Shown piece after piece: positions 2,481 to 14,937 of a DNA stretch of 26,309 nt. Source of the DNA: a bacterium. Its GTDB lineage: Bacteria > Armatimonadota > Zipacnadia > Zipacnadales > Zipacnadaceae. The first letter of the stretch is position 1; each line of letters begins with the position of its first letter. The stretch spans positions 1 through 26,309 of the forward strand of contig JAUVXR010000034.1 of NCBI GenBank assembly GCA_030603495.1. Direction: 5' to 3'. The notes below the pieces were generated by a model. The model searched no databases and had not been told where the DNA came from. It worked only from the letters and a program-made list of their open reading frames with translations. The translations under genes were made by a program, and so were the position numbers.

Positions 2481-3542
2481 CTATTCGCCCGGGTGTAACT
2501 TCCCGTTCGGGTTTCGCGGCCAGAACTCCTTCCACTCATCCCCTCTGCGAGGCCGCGCGCGTTCCCAGCCGCCGCCCCATTTCCCGGCCTTCGTTTTGGG
2601 GTGTTGTACCATGACGTTGCTACTCCATTTCAAGTACCCGGGGCCCCACCAAACCAGCCCCAGTGCATGCTTATCGTCCCAGTCCTTGTCACAAACATCG
2701 GACGGCGGTTTCGGCATCAACATGAATCTCGACTCGTCTCCCCGCACCTGCCACTCGCGCCACGTGCCAATTTCTTTCTTCTCCAACTTCTCTATCTCAT
2801 CAGGTGTTGTCGCCATGCACCGCAGGTAACGCACGCACTCGCAGGCTGACCTCATACGGCCCGTTTGCTCACCTGGCGCGGCAGGAGACCCGCCCATCCA
2901 TTTTGCGCACAGCCTTACATTCGCCGCGGTGTTGTCCCCCTGGTTGGTGACCTGTATGACAAACCACTTCTCGTCAAGGAGTTCCCAACCTTCCTCGCTC
3001 GGCTTCTCCCCGTCCTTGTCCTTATCGTATTCTTCTAGGAATTCCTTCACTGTCATAGGGTCATTCACCAGTACGCCTGCACGCCCCAACAGCGTCGCCT
3101 CAACATGTTCCTCGCCCGCATCGGCGGCTCTTTTCGCCTCCCACGCGTACCACACCACAAACCCCGCTGTGACGGCCAGGACCAATGTCTGCACACCAAG
3201 CACTATTGTCTGCGCTGCGTTGGTCCCTCTACCAGTGTGCCAGAGCAACAATCCCGCCCCTCCCACAACTAACAGCCCCGCTGTAATGCCCAATACTAAT
3301 GACTTGCCCCCTAACGTCGAGTTCGGCTCCCACGGGCGCTTGCTGTTAATAATCCAGCAAATCACCGCCAACAGCCCAATCGCCACCAGGACGGGCCACC
3401 CTATCACCGCCCACAAAATGGTTGCCTCACGATCCAAGTTCAGTGCTCCCAGCGCCACAAGCCCGCCTAGGAACATGAGCAATACCCCGACGAGGAAGAC
3501 CAGAGCTACGACATACCATTCCCATATGCGCTTCACGTTCAC
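2481..3542 (-). CDS. Four-helix membrane protein with large soluble C-terminal domain, unknown function
   Basis: I do not recognise this 353-residue protein. Four hydrophobic segments are visible at about residues 10-33, 42-64, 81-101 and 112-133. A charged, probably cytoplasmic domain follows to the end. It contains WFVIQVTNQGDNTAANVRL, a beta-rich stretch like domains that describe a residue environment beside a membrane anchor, and several tryptophans. The GTG start at 3542 is chosen because AGGAGG (minus strand, 3547-3552) sits 4 nt upstream. The next in-frame GTG is two codons on. The 56-nt block just upstream is shared with the gene starting at 4849. Downstream lies the methyltransferase fragment. 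There are no metal or catalytic motifs I can name. Confidence 0.7.
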   Translation of the reverse strand: MNVKRIWEWYVVALVFLVGVLLMFLGGLVALGALNLDREATILWAVIGWPVLVAIGLLAVICWIINSKRPWEPNSTLGGKSLVLGITAGLLVVGGAGLLLWHTGRGTNAAQTIVLGVQTLVLAVTAGFVVWYAWEAKRAADAGEEHVEATLLGRAGVLVNDPMTVKEFLEEYDKDKDGEKPSEEGWELLDEKWFVIQVTNQGDNTAANVRLCAKWMGGSPAAPGEQTGRMRSACECVRYLRCMATTPDEIEKLEKKEIGTWREWQVRGDESRFMLMPKPPSDVCDKDWDDKHALGLVWWGPGYLKWSSNVMVQHPKTKAGKWGGGWERARPRRGDEWKEFWPRNPNGKLHPGE

Positions 3543-3598
3543 AACACCTCCTCGCCCCCAGTCTACGCCTGAGCGCCGGTTGCTGTCAATCGCCCCGC
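3543..3598 (-). promoter_or_regulatory. 56-nt promoter/ribosome-site block, copy 1
   Basis: Read on the minus strand, this block holds TTGACA (3584-3589), an 18-nt spacer, TAGACT (3560-3565) and then the ribosome site AGGAGGTG (3545-3552), directly followed by the GTG start at 3542. The same 56 nt recurs at 4857-4912 with one mismatch. TTGACA is a perfect -35 hexamer; TAGACT matches the -10 consensus at 4 of 6. Promoter activity is inferred from the hexamers, while the repeat itself is directly visible. Confidence 0.6.
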
Positions 3599-3636
3599 TT
3601 GTCCTGAGGTTCTCGAAGGGCCCGCTCCAAACCCCA

Positions 3637-3661
3637 TCGGGACAAGAATGTCCCTCCTACC
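3637..3661 (+). repeat. Hairpin repeat, GGGACA type
   Basis: GGGACA (3639-3644), loop AGAA, TGTCCC (3649-3654), then TCCTACC. The flanks ATC and TCCTACC are shared with the other members in this window. Confidence 0.75.
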
Positions 3662-3680
3662 CAGGGTTAAAGAAAACGAT

Positions 3681-3705
3681 GGTAGGAGCGGCATTCCTGC
3701 CGCGA
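3681..3705 (-). repeat. Hairpin repeat, GCGGCA type, reverse orientation
   Basis: On the minus strand GCGGCA, loop GGAA, TGCCGC, then TCCTACC (plus coordinates 3688-3703 for the hairpin). The framework is that of the neighbouring repeats, with a compensated base-pair change in the stem. Confidence 0.7.
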
Positions 3706-3720
3706 TTATGTTGCCTCTGA

Positions 3721-3745
3721 TCGGGACAAGAATGTCCCTCCTACC
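3721..3745 (+). repeat. Hairpin repeat, GGGACA type
   Basis: GGGACA (3723-3728), loop AGAA, TGTCCC (3733-3738), TCCTACC. The core and flanks match the copy at 3637. Confidence 0.75.
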
Positions 3746-3760
3746 GGTGTGGGGGAGAGG

Positions 3761-3783
3761 TCGGGGCAAGGGTGCCCCTCCCA
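3761..3783 (+). repeat. Hairpin repeat, GGGGCA type
   Basis: GGGGCA (3763-3768), loop AGGG, TGCCCC (3773-3778), then TCCCAC. The preceding 20 nt (CCGGTGTGGGGGAGAGG) is repeated before the copy at 5010. Confidence 0.7.
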
Positions 3784-3882
3784 CACAGAGGAAGGACCTG
3801 ATTCACCAATGGCCCTCTCACACAGAGGAATGGCCTGATTCACCAAAGCCCCCTACAGAACAAGAATCTGATTCGCCAAGAG
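3782..3882 (+). repeat. Three degenerate tandem repeats of about 36 nt
   Basis: Units at 3782-3818, 3819-3854 and about 3855-3882. The first two begin CACACAGAGGAA and share CCTGATTCACCAA. The third is diverged (CTGATTCGCCAA). No coding capacity or named family is apparent. Confidence 0.6.
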
Positions 3883-3885
3883 TTG

Positions 3886-3908
3886 TGGGAGGGGCACCCT
3901 TGCCCCGA
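3886..3908 (-). repeat. Hairpin repeat, GGGGCA type, reverse orientation
   Basis: On the plus strand GGGGCA (3891-3896), CCCT, TGCCCC (3901-3906), preceded by GTGGGAG. It is the reverse complement of the copy at 3761. Confidence 0.7.
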
Positions 3909-3970
3909 CGCTGTTGAAGTAGCCTGCCGCAGGGCCGATTGCTGTCAATCGCCCCGCCCCTCATTACGCC

Positions 3971-4849
3971 TCAAGAAAGCACCGGGGAAATCCCCGAGGG
4001 TATCCGTTCGGAGCAAGGCACCCCTGTCTGGCACAAGCCACAGCCAGAGGATTCGCCGCCGGGGATTCCGTACAATTTCTCAATGCGTGCACGTATGCTC
4101 CTGCTGAACTCCTGGCAGCGCGCCTTGTCGTGAGCACCTCTATCTCTCCTGATGGCTGCCGCGGGACAGCGGGAGGCACACGCCCGGCACGAGCCATCCT
4201 GGAAGAAAGAACAATACCCCCGCCGCTTAGGACGTGTGACTCTTGCCGCCTGCAGTTTGAGGCGCGCCACGACACTGCCACATCTCATCGCAACTCCTCG
4301 CCGGGAGATGAGGCCGCCCGACAGGCCGAAGGCCCCCAGCCCGGCCGCGTAGGCCGCGTGTCGCTCCGACCAGGTGGACGCCAGGCCAATCTGCTCATCC
4401 GTCAGTGTTGTGAAGCCCGGACCGAGGACGGGTGCAATGGCTTCGAAGCCGGCGCCAGTTAGCTCAGCAGCCACGTAGGCGCGCAACAGGTCATTGTATA
4501 CCTCGCCGTCGCGGCGGCCGTGCGCCCAGTACTCAGATGGCCCGTCAGTCTGCGTGGCGTTACTGCTGACGATCGTGTGGGTGAATGGCAGAATCCACGA
4601 GATGACCGTCAGATCATTGCCCCCGACGGTATTGCCGGTTGTCTCCCGGAATAACTCTGCCGGTGTGGGGTGAAACTCGCCGATGATAGCCTTGTATTGC
4701 ACCCAAAGCGGATCGGCGCCCGATACGAACCCCACCAGCGGCTCGTCATAGATGCAGAGCGAGGGCGCAATGCGCAGGCGATTCTGATGACTACTGGAGA
4801 CGTGCGCGCGGATAAGACTGCCCACCCACTCCTTTGTGCTGTTGTGCAT
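3971..4849 (-). CDS. QueG-like double [4Fe-4S] protein (epoxyqueuosine-reductase-related)
   Basis: A 292-residue cytoplasmic iron-sulfur protein resembling the family often labelled epoxyqueuosine reductase-like. The middle carries the family signature WSERHAAYAAGLGAFGLSGG followed by RGVAMRCGSVV. The C-terminal third has two cysteine clusters: C213, C221-x2-C224-x3-C228-P, and C245 with C270-x2-C273-x5-C279 in CGLCQTGVPCSERIP. This suits two [4Fe-4S] clusters and an electron-transfer or cobamide-linked reductase role. It lacks enough similarity in the N-terminal half for me to call it true QueG. I chose ATG 4849 because AGGAGG (4861-4866, minus strand) is 11 nt away. TTG 4858 and GTG 4861 are also in frame but lie too close to, or inside, the ribosome site. 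The leader is the 56-nt repeated block. Confidence 0.75.
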   Translation of the reverse strand: MHNSTKEWVGSLIRAHVSSSHQNRLRIAPSLCIYDEPLVGFVSGADPLWVQYKAIIGEFHPTPAELFRETTGNTVGGNDLTVISWILPFTHTIVSSNATQTDGPSEYWAHGRRDGEVYNDLLRAYVAAELTGAGFEAIAPVLGPGFTTLTDEQIGLASTWSERHAAYAAGLGAFGLSGGLISRRGVAMRCGSVVARLKLQAARVTRPKRRGYCSFFQDGSCRACASRCPAAAIRRDRGAHDKARCQEFSRSIRARIEKLYGIPGGESSGCGLCQTGVPCSERIPSGISPVLS

Positions 4850-4856
4850 GTGCGCC

Positions 4857-4912
4857 AACACCTCCTCGCCCCGAGTCTACGCCTGAGCGCCGGTTGCTGT
4901 CAATCGCCCCGC
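4857..4912 (-). promoter_or_regulatory. 56-nt promoter/ribosome-site block, copy 2
   Basis: Differs from the copy at 3543-3598 at one position. On the minus strand: TTGACA (4898-4903), 18-nt spacer, TAGACT (4874-4879), AGGAGGTG (4859-4866). It lies directly upstream of the QueG-like gene, whose coding sequence is unrelated to the gene behind copy 1. Confidence 0.6.
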
Positions 4913-4967
4913 CCCGGCCCCTGACCACCCGTAGGGGCGCTGCTTGCCGCGCCCGCCCCAGACCCCA

Positions 4968-5032
4968 TCGGGGCAAGGGTGCCCCTCCTACCGGTGTGGG
5001 GGAGAGGTCGGGGCAAGGGTGCCCCTCCTACC
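4968..5032 (+). repeat. Two hairpin repeats, GGGGCA type, in tandem
   Basis: Hairpins GGGGCA, AGGG, TGCCCC at 4970-4985 and 5010-5025, each followed by TCCTACC. The linker CCGGTGTGGGGGAGAGG is the one found before the copy at 3761, so about 40 nt (4988-5027) repeats 3741-3780 almost exactly. Confidence 0.75.
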
Positions 5033-5120
5033 GGCACTCTCCTCGCTCCCTTTACTTTTGAAAGTTTTTGCCGGCTTGTCCGCCGTAGCTGCACTTGTAT
5101 AGCGAAGGCGAGAAGGGGTG

Positions 5121-5156
5121 CGGGGAACCGGCTTTTTTCAAAAAGCGGGTTCCCTG
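5121..5156. repeat. Long inverted repeat
   Basis: Outer arms GGGAACC (5123-5129) and GGTTCCC (5148-5154), one G-G mismatch, inner arms GCTTTTT (5131-5137) and AAAAAGC (5140-5146), loop TC. The stem can be extended by a G-T and a C-G pair. The role is unknown: hairpin regulator, bidirectional terminator or repeat element are all possible. Confidence 0.65.
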
Positions 5157-5245
5157 CAAAGCTGTCCTCCTCTCGGCTATTCTGCCCGCGCCGCGGCTCT
5201 CTGGACAAACCGGCAACGAACCAGTATACCAAATGATGAAGACTG

Positions 5246-5282: not shown

Positions 5283-5462
5283 ATGAAAGTCAAAGAGGGC
5301 GACGTGCTAGTCTGCCAGTGCGGAGATTGCGAGCTGGAGGTGACGGTTACCAAGGTCTGTGGCCCGGTCTCGTGCGGATGCGAACCCGCCTGCTGCGACA
5401 TAGAGGCGAGTTGCTGCGACGAGCCTCTGGTCGTCAAGGCCAAGGGCTGTTGCTGCAGCTGA
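5283..5462 (+). CDS. Cysteine-rich 59-residue protein, possible metal-binding miniprotein
   Basis: A short gene with a near-perfect ribosome site (AAGGAGGTG, 5 nt before ATG). The 59-residue product has 13 cysteines at 11, 13, 16, 26, 31, 33, 37, 38, 44, 45, 56, 57 and 58. The N-terminal part, KEGDVLVCQCGDCELEVTV, and the later CCDEPLVVK recall the two halves of desulforedoxin (a CxxC-bearing strand, then CCGEPM). However, it has many more cysteines, closer to a metallothionein. It is acidic and has no signal peptide or membrane helix, so it is probably cytoplasmic. Binding of a transition metal or Fe is an inference from cysteine spacing. A hairpin follows at 5505. The start is confident and the function is not. 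Confidence 0.65.
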   Translation: MKVKEGDVLVCQCGDCELEVTVTKVCGPVSCGCEPACCDIEASCCDEPLVVKAKGCCCS

Positions 5463-6014: not shown

Positions 6015-7436
6015 TTACAACATATACCTACTCAAGTCCTGGTCTTCGACGACGTCCTGGAGCTGCTTCTGGACGTAGTCGGCGTCAATGGGTATCTTCT
6101 GCTCGCCGATCTCGGGCGCTTCGAAGGAAAGTTCTTCCAGCAGCCGCTCCATGAGGGTATAGAGCCGGCGGGCGCCGATGTTCTCGGTCTGCTCGTTGAC
6201 CAGTTGCGCCAGCCGCGCCAGCTCGGTGATAGCGTCCTCGCCGAAGGTCAGCTCGATGCCCTCGGTGGCCAGCAGCGCGATGTACTGCTTGACCAGGGAG
6301 TTATCGGGCTCGACGAGGATGCGCGCGAAGTCCTCCTGGGTGAGGCTATCCAGCTCTACGCGCAGGGGGATGCGGCCCTGCAGTTCGGGGATCAGATCGG
6401 AGGGCTTGGAGATGTGGAAGGCCCCCGCGCAGATGAACAGGATATGGTCAGTATTTACCGGCCCGTACTTGGTCATCACCGTGCAGCCCTCGATGATCGG
6501 TAGGATGTCGCGCTGGACACCCTCGCGCGAGACGTCCGGGCCGTGACCGGTGGTTTCCCGCCCGGCGACCTTGTCAAGCTCGTCAACGAAGACGATGCCG
6601 TTCTCCTCGGTCGCCTCCAGCGCGCGCCGCCCTACCTCCTGGCCGTCAATGAGCTTGTCGGCCTCCTGGTAGGTCAGGACGCGGCGGGCCTCGGCGACGG
6701 TAGTGCGCTTGGTGGACTTGCGCGCGGGGAAGAGGTTCCCGAGCATATTCTGCATGTCCATCCCCATCTCTTCCATCCCCGCGGCGCTGAATATCTGCAT
6801 GCTCTGCATCATCGGCTCCTCCACCTCGACCTCAATCTCCTGATCCTCCAGCTCACCGGCCGCCAGGCGCTGGCGGGTGAAGTTGCGCACGCGCTCTTCC
6901 TGGCGGGCCATCTGCTCGCGGCGGTCTCGCTCGGCCGCCATCTGCTCGGGGGTGGGCGTCGGCTCGGTTGCGCCAAGCATGGCCGCCAGCGGCGGCGCCG
7001 CTTGGCTTTTCTCCACCCCGGCCAGGATATTCACCAATCGCTCGTTAGCCCGGCGCTCTGCCTCCTCTTCAACTGCCGCGAAGGCCTCGTCTTCGGCCAT
7101 GCGGTAGGCGATTTCCATCAGGTCGCGGATGATTGCCTCCACGTCACGGCCCACGTAGCCGACCTCGGTGAACTTAGTCGCCTCGACCTTGATAAAGGGA
7201 GAGTTGGCCAAATTAGCCAGTCGCCGGGCGATCTCGGTCTTGCCCACGCCGGTCGGGCCGATCATCAGGATGTTCTTGGGGATGACCTCGTCACGGAGTT
7301 CTTCATCCTCCAGCGCGCGGCGGCGGGCGCGGTTGCGCAGGGCGATAGCCACCGACCGCTTCGCATCATCCTGGCCGATTATGTAGCGGTCGAGCTGCTC
7401 AACAATTTCCCTGGGTGTCAGATCATCTATTATCAC
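6015..7436 (-). CDS. hslU: ATP-dependent protease ATPase subunit HslU (ClpY)
   Basis: AAA+ unfoldase that feeds substrates to HslV in the cytoplasm. At 473 residues it is full length. Walker A GPTGVGKT is at 60-67 and pore motif GYVG at 93-96. The variable I-domain covers roughly 110-240, with an acidic/glutamine-rich stretch and methionine-rich segment [13 protein letters not shown]. Walker B reads [10 protein letters not shown] near 275-285. The sensor-2 arginine lies in [15 protein letters not shown]. The C-terminus LSRYML is the tail that docks in HslV pockets. The start is GTG 7436, immediately after the hslV stop (7437-7439), so the two genes form an operon and are probably translationally coupled. 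Confidence 0.97.
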
Positions 7437-12480: not shown

Positions 12481-13563
12481 ATGAACTCACAGATGTGCCA
12501 AGCCACGAGGATAGTACCGCAGTTGGTGGTATTCCATTCATCACTCAAACGTCAGCAGGGCGTTGTTGTGGCATGGGTCACGGTTGCGCTGTTGGTGCTG
12601 CTGGGCGCGGCGGCGCTGACGGTTGACATCGGCCGTCTAGCTATTGCCGCGCAGGTCGCGCAGGATGTAGCCGACGCGGCCGCACTCGGGGCCTGCCGGG
12701 AGCTACCTAGCCACGGGACGGCACGGAGCGTGGCACTGGACCTGGTGACTGCTAACAACGAGTCGCTGGGTGGATTTACCGCCAATTGCTCGCCGGATGA
12801 CGGCGACATCACCTTCTGGGGCGCCAATGAGACTATCCCGGACTTTGGCCTGCTGGGCGATTATGCCTGGGGCATGCGGGTTACCACCCACATCCCCGTT
12901 GATTATGTCTTCGCGCCTGTGCTGGGCCTGGAGGGCGCAACAATCTCTCGTAGCTGCACGGCCGTGCGCATGCCCGTCGGGGGTATGCCGATTTGTCCCA
13001 TGTGGATCAGCTATGTAACTGATTACCAGTACGGTCAGGAACAGCAATTGCTCATGGCTGACGGGCCGCACTGCGCGAATATTCCCGGTTCGTTTGGCTG
13101 GCTGAATCCGCTCTCGGGCACAGACGATTTTGCTGACTTGCTGCGCGGCTACAATCTGACCTATGAACAGATAGTAGCCAATTATGCGGCTATCGACGAC
13201 ATTTGGTTCGCCGAAACCGGGCTAAGTGTGGGGCTCTGGAAAACGGGCCTGGATAACGCTCCCGACGGGCTGGGGCGGATGGATCGGGCCATGTGGGAGC
13301 CGTGGGCTGGAGACACTTTTGACGACTTCCACAACAGCAACCCTCGTATCGTGATCATACCGATGTGTGAGTATCTGGGTGACACGGGAGGTGGGGCACA
13401 GTTTCAGATCCGGGCCTTTGGCGCGTTCTACATCGAGTCCGTTAACAGTAAGAAGAAGCCCTATGACATCAGCGGCCGGTTCATACAGTACACCTTACCA
13501 GGCGCAGCAGGTGATCCCCTGGCGCCCGAGACCGGGCTGTGGACGACCAAGATGGTAAGATAG
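12481..13563 (+). CDS. TadE/TadG-like Flp pilus-assembly protein, paralogue 1
   Basis: A 360-residue envelope protein. The segment QQGVVVAWVTVALLVLLGAA (residues 26-45) and the following helix AIAAQVAQDVADAAALGAC form the class seen in TadE/TadG-like pseudopilins. Here a hydrophobic anchor leads into the VDxGRL motif. The outer domain then shows FAPVLGLEGATISRSCTAV and IPGSFGWLNPLSG, the G(N/S)FGWL motif known from TadG-like proteins. It ends with PRIVIIPMCEYLG and an AFYIES...GRFIQY strand. It is about 25 residues longer at its N-terminus than paralogue 2 (13888). The ribosome site is GGAGAGG before ATG 12481. Confidence 0.78.
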   Translation: MNSQMCQATRIVPQLVVFHSSLKRQQGVVVAWVTVALLVLLGAAALTVDIGRLAIAAQVAQDVADAAALGACRELPSHGTARSVALDLVTANNESLGGFTANCSPDDGDITFWGANETIPDFGLLGDYAWGMRVTTHIPVDYVFAPVLGLEGATISRSCTAVRMPVGGMPICPMWISYVTDYQYGQEQQLLMADGPHCANIPGSFGWLNPLSGTDDFADLLRGYNLTYEQIVANYAAIDDIWFAETGLSVGLWKTGLDNAPDGLGRMDRAMWEPWAGDTFDDFHNSNPRIVIIPMCEYLGDTGGGAQFQIRAFGAFYIESVNSKKKPYDISGRFIQYTLPGAAGDPLAPETGLWTTKMVR

Positions 13564-13636: not shown

Positions 13637-13800
13637 AGTCCCCTCGCTCGGCGAGAACCGATGCAGGTCCTCTAGACAGGCTCTTCTTGTGCCTGATCCT
13701 CCAAGCTAATACACTGTTCTGCCTCGTGGCTCCTTCGCGCATCCCTCCAACAGATGTGTGTGGCAGAAAAGTCCATTCGTGCCGCATATGTACCAGAATA

Positions 13801-13829
13801 TTGACAATAGTTGCCGTTTCGTGTATAAT
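13801..13829 (+). promoter_or_regulatory. Perfect sigma-70 consensus promoter
   Basis: TTGACA (13801-13806), 17-nt spacer, TATAAT (13824-13829): all 12 consensus positions with optimal spacing. The ATG of the second TadG-like gene is about 55 nt further on. Confidence 0.85.
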
Positions 13830-13887
13830 ATCGGAGAATATAGTTAGAGGCTGCAAATTCAGTTGCCATAGGCGAGGAGCAATGGGC

Positions 13888-14937
13888 ATGTTGACTGTCG
13901 GTAAGAGAGAGCAGGAAAAAGGTGCCATCGTGGCGATAGTGATGGTTGGCCTGATGGCCCTGTTGGGTATGGCGGCCCTGACCGTTGATGTGGGCCTGCT
14001 GGCGCTTGCGGCCCAGCAGGCGCAAGACGTGGCTGACGCCGCGGCCTTGGGGGCGGCCTTGGAGGTGCCCGACTACACTAGCGGTCGGACGGTGGCATTA
14101 TCCTTAGTTGACGCCAACAATGAGTCCTACGCTGGCTTACAGGCCGCCTGTTCATCCGCCAAAGGGGACATTCTCTTTTGGGGTCCCCACGAAACCATCC
14201 CGGATTACGGTTTGCTGGACAGCAGCACCTATGGGGTCCGCGTGAGTGTTCATATACCGGTCGACTACATGTTCGCCCCCGTGCTGGGCCTAACGGGTAC
14301 TACGGTAACACGCAGTTCCACGTGTGTGCGCAGGCGCGCTGGGGCAGCGCCTATTGCTCCCATGTGGATGAGCTATGAGCCCCCCTTAGATCCCCTCTTG
14401 GATTATGGCGTGGAGCGAGAGATGTTGATGGCAAGCGACCCCAGCGCTGCAGATATCCCCGGTTCGTTTGGGTGGCTTGAACCACTTTCCGGCGGCCAAG
14501 ACTTTCTTGAACTGCTGCGTGGCTACGACCTGACTCCTGAGCAGGTAGAGGCTAACCTAGTAGCCGAGGGCGATGTGGTGACCGCCTATACCGGTCTCAG
14601 CGTGGGGCAATGGCGAGGAGCACTTGACTATTCCAATGACGGCCTGTCCCGATTAGAGCGGGCCACGGACCCGGAGGGTCCCTGGGCGAACGATACTTTC
14701 GACAATTTCCAGAGTGATAATCCCCGGATAATCCTCGTCCCTATGGTTGAGTATCTAGGTGGCACAGGCTCCGGAGCAGAGTTTCTAATTCATGACTTTG
14801 CGGCGTTCTGGATTGAGTCAATCAATAGCCAGAACCCCCCTTATTCGATCACTGGCCGGTTCATCAAGTATCAGTTACCCGGCACCGGCACCGATGCCCT
14901 CTCCGAGAAGGTTTGGGCAGTCAGGATGGTCAAGTAG
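13888..14937 (+). CDS. TadE/TadG-like Flp pilus-assembly protein, paralogue 2
   Basis: A 349-residue paralogue of the preceding gene. It has the same N-terminal anchor (GLMALLGMAALTVDVGLLAL then AQQAQDVADAAALGA), the same FAPVLGLTGTTVTRSSTC strand, IPGSFGWLEPLSGGQDFLEL, and PRIILVPMVEYLG followed by AFWIES and GRFIKY. Long blocks are near-identical to paralogue 1, so the pair came from a tandem duplication. I chose ATG 13888 because GAGGAG (13874-13879) is 8 nt upstream; ATG 13882 is also in frame but only 2 nt from it. The open frame further upstream lies over the promoter and is not used. It is expressed from its own consensus promoter and probably works with the Flp pilin at 15060. Confidence 0.8.
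   Translation: MLTVGKREQEKGAIVAIVMVGLMALLGMAALTVDVGLLALAAQQAQDVADAAALGAALEVPDYTSGRTVALSLVDANNESYAGLQAACSSAKGDILFWGPHETIPDYGLLDSSTYGVRVSVHIPVDYMFAPVLGLTGTTVTRSSTCVRRRAGAAPIAPMWMSYEPPLDPLLDYGVEREMLMASDPSAADIPGSFGWLEPLSGGQDFLELLRGYDLTPEQVEANLVAEGDVVTAYTGLSVGQWRGALDYSNDGLSRLERATDPEGPWANDTFDNFQSDNPRIILVPMVEYLGGTGSGAEFLIHDFAAFWIESINSQNPPYSITGRFIKYQLPGTGTDALSEKVWAVRMVK

Follow-up and report, generated by a model that had tools for sequence, protein, structure and literature searches.

The two near-identical blocks that stand before unrelated genes in the window, the whole 26,309-nt stretch analysed here (contig C21 of a 2.67-Mb metagenome bin, G000), share a core that is best explained as the cargo-slot promoter and ribosome-binding site of a family of ParA/RPA plasmid-like elements and of islands derived from them. 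In one genus of uncultured bacteria, this core would also serve as a recombination joint, a reading to which we assign a probability of about 0.6. Observed directly are the number of copies, their orientation relative to open reading frames (ORFs), the one-sided sharing of flanks, four combinations of flank and cargo, and a slot next to parAB in four contigs. The comparison covers 25–28 copies from the genus and from two single contigs binned elsewhere; the material consists throughout of draft metagenome bins and is sequence only.

Core copy 1 lies at 3542–3598 on the minus strand (E 4.3e-30 against itself), with TTGACA at 3589–3584, an 18-nt spacer, TAGACT at 3565–3560 and the Shine-Dalgarno sequence AGGAGGTG at 3552–3545. 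Copy 2, at 4856–4912 on the same strand, has TTGACA at 4903–4898, TAGACT at 4879–4874 and AGGAGGTG at 4866–4859. An earlier note on this DNA had described two near-identical promoter blocks before ORFs, and so they are: both follow the order TTGACA, 18 nt, TAGACT, 7 nt, AGGAGGTG, then ORF, and they agree at 56 of 57 bases (98% over 57 nt), the lone mismatch being C at 3559 against G at 4873 on the plus strand. In a BLAST search of its own genome with copy 1, copy 2 is found at E 1.9e-22; the likeness of the two is therefore not due to chance. The third, partial copy without a gene start that the note had reported is present at 3931–3957 on the minus strand. It holds only the left half (GGGGCGATTGACAGCAATCGG) without the -10 hexamer, and no ORF starts directly 3' of it. 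The left edge proposed for the block, at about 3598 and 4912, is correct for the similarity between the window pair, but only GATTGACAGCAACCGGCG-N2-CAGGCGTAGACTGGGGGCGAGGA is general to all compared copies. The promoter core that these have in common amounts to roughly 45 bases, and the shared stretch may extend beyond AGGAGGTG into the first codons (GTGAAGCGnATG); first codons resembling GTGAAGCGnATG are common to three copies, after which the proteins diverge.

As had also been noted, the coding sequences behind the two full window copies are unrelated. Copy 1 precedes a gene for a 353-aa membrane protein (2481–3542, minus strand), which matches no Pfam, PADLOC or NCBIfam family and is 44% identical, over residues 93–351, to the product of a gene placed between a core and a methyltransferase in a relative (G006:C51). 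Copy 2 precedes a gene for a 296-aa Fe-S protein (3971–4861, minus strand) with a sub-threshold match to Fer4_16 (4Fe-4S) and weak QueG/RDH matches; its sole other relative in 60 genomes (50%) is from another family of the order. A 5' remnant of an N6_N4 DNA methyltransferase gene, about 133 residues long, lies at 1986–2444 on the minus strand, and behind other cores this gene is found at full length with a C-terminal Mrr_cat domain. The chromosomal neighbour is hslU (6015–7436, minus strand).

The non-coding DNA around the window copies is itself repetitive. Repeats of the form GGTAGGAGGG(A/G)CA..TTG(T/C)CCCGA occupy 3636–3785 upstream of copy 1 and, as members of the same family, 4967–5031 upstream of copy 2, all on the minus strand. 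A hairpin repeat, GGGAACCCGCTTTTTGAAAAAAGCCGGTTCCC, at 5118–5160 (minus strand) also adjoins other core copies, and within a 68-nt piece it folds at -23.2 kcal/mol. Elsewhere in the window, 5283–5462 encodes a small Cys-rich protein of 59 aa with several CC motifs, divergent from the island and without a Pfam match, and two adjoining paralogues at 12481–13563 and 13687–14937 (72% DNA identity over 103 nt) resemble, by eye, the TadG-like proteins associated with Tad-type pili.

Beyond the window, the core recurs in its own genome, in which eight matches were found at E ≤ 0.01, partial ones counted: two full copies and one half on C21, the others on C28, C16 and C24. Among relatives in the genus there are 10 copies in G006, 2 in G004, 1–3 in G001 and 1–2 in G005, and across 46 genomes of the class further copies occur only singly, in G011 and G036. 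A 32-nt core pattern searched against a collection of named genomes matched in only two bins, on the same contigs as in G006 and G004. The pattern has no exact match among the 2.9 million viral contigs of IMG/VR, and on this ground a phage origin of the core was set aside; PLSDB holds no DNA match to window positions 3480–5160. The earlier note had suggested that the block may be a portable expression module, an idea against which few copies, or a random placement relative to start codons, would have counted. With about eight copies in the genome, and the genes behind them listed, scarcity is refuted.

The placement of the copies is likewise far from random. An ORF begins no more than 110 nt downstream of at least 15 of the 24 fuller copies, whereas 5 of 24 have one at that distance on the reverse side and the intergenic background is 22.8% (P 3.6e-5); the figure of 15 is conservative because the ORF caller missed the CBS genes. 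The same core thus stands before many unrelated genes in the genome and the genus, non-randomly with respect to ORF starts, which supports the portable module. The genes are of mixed kind, accessory for the most part and often antiviral. On C16, the core is followed by a pair of genes for an AAA ATPase and a DUF4435 protein that match AriA and AriB of the PARIS system; on C24 by a gene for an SLFN_AlbA_2 protein, then an SspA/DndA-like cysteine desulfurase, SspB and SspC; and on G006:C37 by a gene for a GmrSD-type enzyme, which lies behind a methyltransferase remnant. Further cargo includes genes for DUF3800, HEAT-repeat and CBS proteins and for several proteins without a family, while some copies (L056, L061) have no gene and run into a hairpin. 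At many loci, one DNA methyltransferase gene, whose product has a C-terminal domain of the Mrr type, lies 30–100 nt 3' of the cargo, in some cases as no more than a 5' or 3' remnant. It was ruled out as an obligatory partner, since it is absent from the vicinity of several core copies and, in other families of the order, occurs without this core. At locus L051 (4733–3519, minus strand), an in-frame fusion at a shared IYLD motif links the methyltransferase 5' end (FGDNLEILRDHVGDE) with a cysteine desulfurase of the SspA/DndA type, and SspB and SspC come next.

The core has the appearance of a constitutive promoter of the sigma-70 type with a ribosome-binding site, and its activity is predicted from its sequence. 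In the window's own genome, perfect TTGACA-N16-18-TATAAT sites number 48, against 0 for a reversed control, which indicates that the organism uses this promoter type. Substitutions are rarer in the hexamers (14/288) than in the spacer (48/432; P 0.004), a difference that is not significant once the free positions 26–27 in mid-spacer are left out (P 0.12). The spacer is thus kept nearly as well as the hexamers, and recent copying, rather than selection alone, explains much of the identity. Damaged copies tend to retain the hexamers, as in L161, which reads TTGACA-N18-TAAACT with several spacer changes, and in L061_361, where TTGACA and TAGACT are retained around a different 17-nt spacer. The most conserved piece of the core is its left part around the -35 hexamer. 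Over this lies an imperfect dyad, CGATTG-ACAG-CAACCG, with one unpaired position in nearly all copies; the partial copy at 3931–3957 has the perfect form, CGATTG-ACAG-CAATCG. The dyad (CGATTG-ACAG-CAAYCG) could be an operator.

Comparing the flanks of the copies reveals how the core relates to the DNA on either side. Among 300 pairs, 11 share only the upstream flank, 9 share only the downstream flank and none shares both under an ungapped 20-nt criterion; about 0.3 two-sided pairs would be expected under independence. Since zero agrees with that expectation, the result shows reshuffling, not an avoidance of two-sided sharing nor a preference for the core over other homologies. The core is thus not part of a larger duplicated segment, with a single exception in gapped alignment, the CBS copies of G036 and G005. 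Flank similarity breaks at the two edges of the core, at an end position that differs between pairs, and the compared copies have no constant terminus; half copies break near the core middle. For this reason the core does not appear to be the edge of a mobile element, as the earlier note had worded it. A constant right edge is found in a second repeated promoter of G000, TTGACAGCAAGCCCCCC..CTATAAT (C22:88, C27:908, C32:123, C34:87, C38:90, C60:137037(-), C24:25845(-) and C28:29742(-); L171–L179). Six of its copies have about 90 nt of constant upstream sequence, the right edge ends in CAACAGTCTC and several contigs begin there, so that this family looks like an outward promoter at the end of a mobile element. 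For the core, a link with gene capture is plausible, with the promoter acting as a joint and not as an element end.

Particular combinations make the exchange concrete. The 93-nt upstream flank of copy 1 is 90% identical to that of the parAB-side copy in G006, at the GmrSD locus. This type of flank (class A) occurs with membrane-protein, GmrSD and CBS cargo, being shorter and more diverged before CBS, while a second type (class D), identical over 55 nt, occurs with CBS and HEAT cargo. As classes A and D are each found with CBS and with other cargo, four combinations in all, recombination at the core is needed. The CBS unit of G006 matches that of G036 over 591 nt with 92.7% identity, a stretch that begins with the left edge of the core and stops 5 nt short of the following G006 core. 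The joint of one locus falls within the methyltransferase gene, at GGGCGAGGAG, 10 nt that also occur in the ribosome-site block. On the basis of the flank comparison, a role of the core in gene exchange is well supported, and its behaviour is that of a promoter-RBS hinge where flanks and genes appear to have been recombined.

The elements to which the core belongs are best seen on C16 (locus L050), a 10.98-kb plasmid-like contig with ParA, an RPA-type initiator and the PARIS-like AriA/AriB pair. Its initiator matches the Pfam RPA family at 5.4e-14, its partition protein is a ParA-type AAA_31 ATPase and a second small gene occupies the parB position; initiator and partition genes thus occur together, as expected of an RPA-type plasmid, and homologs lie on three further contigs. 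ParA (66–75% identical), ParB-like and RPA genes are common to C16, G001:C64, G006:C37 and G036:C445, the initiator being partial on the last, and three of the four contigs also have an OsmC gene. In all four, a core copy lies 0.4–1.1 kb downstream of parAB. The ends of C16 do not overlap; those of G006:C37 overlap by 98 nt, which consist of a 23-nt tandem repeat. The coverage of G006:C37 (L054/L053) is 19, compared with 13–14 on other contigs of its bin, and it may be a separate replicon. Contig G036:C445 (L064) is likely misbinned, because its neighbours are those on G006:C37, a contig from a bin of another family, and its own bin is 8% contaminated. Transfer between families was set aside on the same grounds, the neighbours of the CBS unit on G036:C445 being those on G006:C37.

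Core copies do lie at the boundary between the plasmid-like backbone, or the island, and the cargo genes. The non-coding DNA of the window matches C16 in many pieces, and within the genome exact matches to the repeat GGTAGGAGGGACATTCTTGTCCC are confined to C16 and C21. The GGTAGGAG repeats were considered as a possible genome-wide background, an idea rejected in the case of the ATTCTTGTCCC form: its exact matches number only four, on these two contigs, and those on C21 lie upstream of copy 1. The window would accordingly be a chromosomal island beside hslU that received units from a ParA/RPA-type element; we infer this direction, from element to chromosome, for the window copies, transfer direction as such not being polarised in the data. 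In G004 and G005, the position immediately downstream of hslU also has core copies, with other cargo behind them; G006 has none there. A common empty site beside hslU was considered and is not clean, the region being rearranged in relatives, and the window loci have no clean empty site among these relatives.

Other explanations account for parts of this pattern. The high conservation around the -35 hexamer and the perfect dyad of the partial copy speak for an ordinary regulon, in which a selected promoter-operator stands before co-regulated accessory genes and moved with them, with no special role in recombination. This is rather unlikely: the identity spans the spacer, the leader and some first codons, unrelated genes are joined at different downstream points and the same gene is found behind different upstream flanks; in nearly all copies, moreover, one position of the dyad is left unpaired. 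Apparent mosaics could also stem from misassembly or misbinning of a repeat, given that the data are metagenome bins and that the neighbours of G036:C445 and G006:C37 are nearly the same in different families. We consider this very improbable, as the copies lie within long contigs (226 kb for G006:C21, 130 kb for G000:C24) with ORFs running straight from the core, and several independent bins agree.

Three further readings give the core a place in a mobile or site-specific system. It could be an integron- or att-like crossover site at which a site-specific recombinase moves cassettes of promoter and gene. Cassettes in direct repeat are present in the window and at L053, L054, L055 and L051, the CBS unit in G006 is flanked by cores at both ends, half copies are broken close to the core midpoint and, at L051, a serine-recombinase-like N-terminus was seen in translation directly upstream of a core copy. 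However, a reading by eye of the ORF translations from the four ParA/RPA contigs, with a Pfam scan of some of these ORFs, revealed no intact recombinase, and this makes a site-specific system less likely; in addition, no attC-like structure was seen in a survey without a dedicated attC model, junction positions vary and one joint uses short homology. Altogether we hold this reading to be improbable. We give a similarly small chance to the core being a dedicated exchange site, its promoter an attachment site whose -35 dyad a recombinase of the element or the host recognises; if it were, every captured gene would be expressed at once. Finally, a transposon or MITE with an outward promoter at its end would explain a small dispersed repeat of this kind, and the second promoter family of the same genome looks exactly so. 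The block, in contrast, has no fixed ends and no terminal inverted repeats, no transposase was recognised beside it and similarity between copies stops at varying positions; lacking constant ends, it was rejected as a transposon or MITE edge, a reading that has very little probability left.

Among known systems, the closest are the putative mobile promoters of Matus-Garcia, Nijveen and van Passel (2012, Nucleic Acids Res 40:10032) and van Passel et al. (2014), cited in PMC8049555, and the best reading of the core is as a variant of these. As that article presents them, they are short, near-identical promoters that precede non-homologous genes of one genome and have no transposase themselves; here, too, a near-identical short promoter sequence precedes several non-homologous genes in one genome. 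Measured against that account, the core differs in carrying a ribosome site and sometimes first codons, in being tied to ParA/RPA elements and defence-type cargo, and in that the flank comparison points to the promoter as a recombination joint. The promoter-stem-loop (PeSL) cassettes of T4-type phages (Arbiol et al. 2010; Comeau et al. 2014), as discussed in PMC4503421, are likewise a repeated promoter between exchangeable modules and a proposed place of recombination, and some cores have a hairpin just upstream. Unlike the cassettes of that discussion, the core does not sit in a phage, having no match to its 32-nt pattern in IMG/VR, lies on contigs with chromosomal genes such as hslU, has the hairpin within 400 nt upstream in only 6 of 25 copies and resembles a bacterial promoter of the sigma-70 type. 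With integron cassettes, the core units share a tandem arrangement of single genes in one direction and mixed accessory cargo, whereas each has its own promoter, and neither an integrase (by eye, on the four ParA/RPA contigs) nor attC (without a dedicated model) was seen. As in defence islands and hotspots, PARIS, Ssp, GmrSD and methyltransferase genes are concentrated at a few sites, yet here a single common promoter, rather than a tRNA, phage or integrase site, marks the slot. As far as a non-exhaustive search of the literature goes, the combination of ribosome site, ParA/RPA element family and anti-phage cargo has not been described.

In the cargo-slot reading that we prefer, the core at the entrance of the slot would drive the gene, or the gene and DNA methyltransferase, placed behind it. 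The same sequence in the same orientation before many slots would offer a stretch of homology at which copies recombine, so that an upstream flank becomes joined to a new downstream gene; alternatively, a unit of promoter, gene and hairpin may be copied to another place. The most probable route of exchange is ordinary recombination, homologous or based on short homology, without a dedicated recombinase, and selection would favour joints that bring immediate expression of the gene. This bears on how defence genes, once newly acquired, come to be expressed: a gene recombined in this manner would be transcribed and translated without delay. Should the reading be confirmed, the core could serve as a search tag for unknown defence genes, as several cargo genes have no family, and would provide a bacterial counterpart to the promoter-mediated shuffling of modules that has been proposed for T4-type phages.
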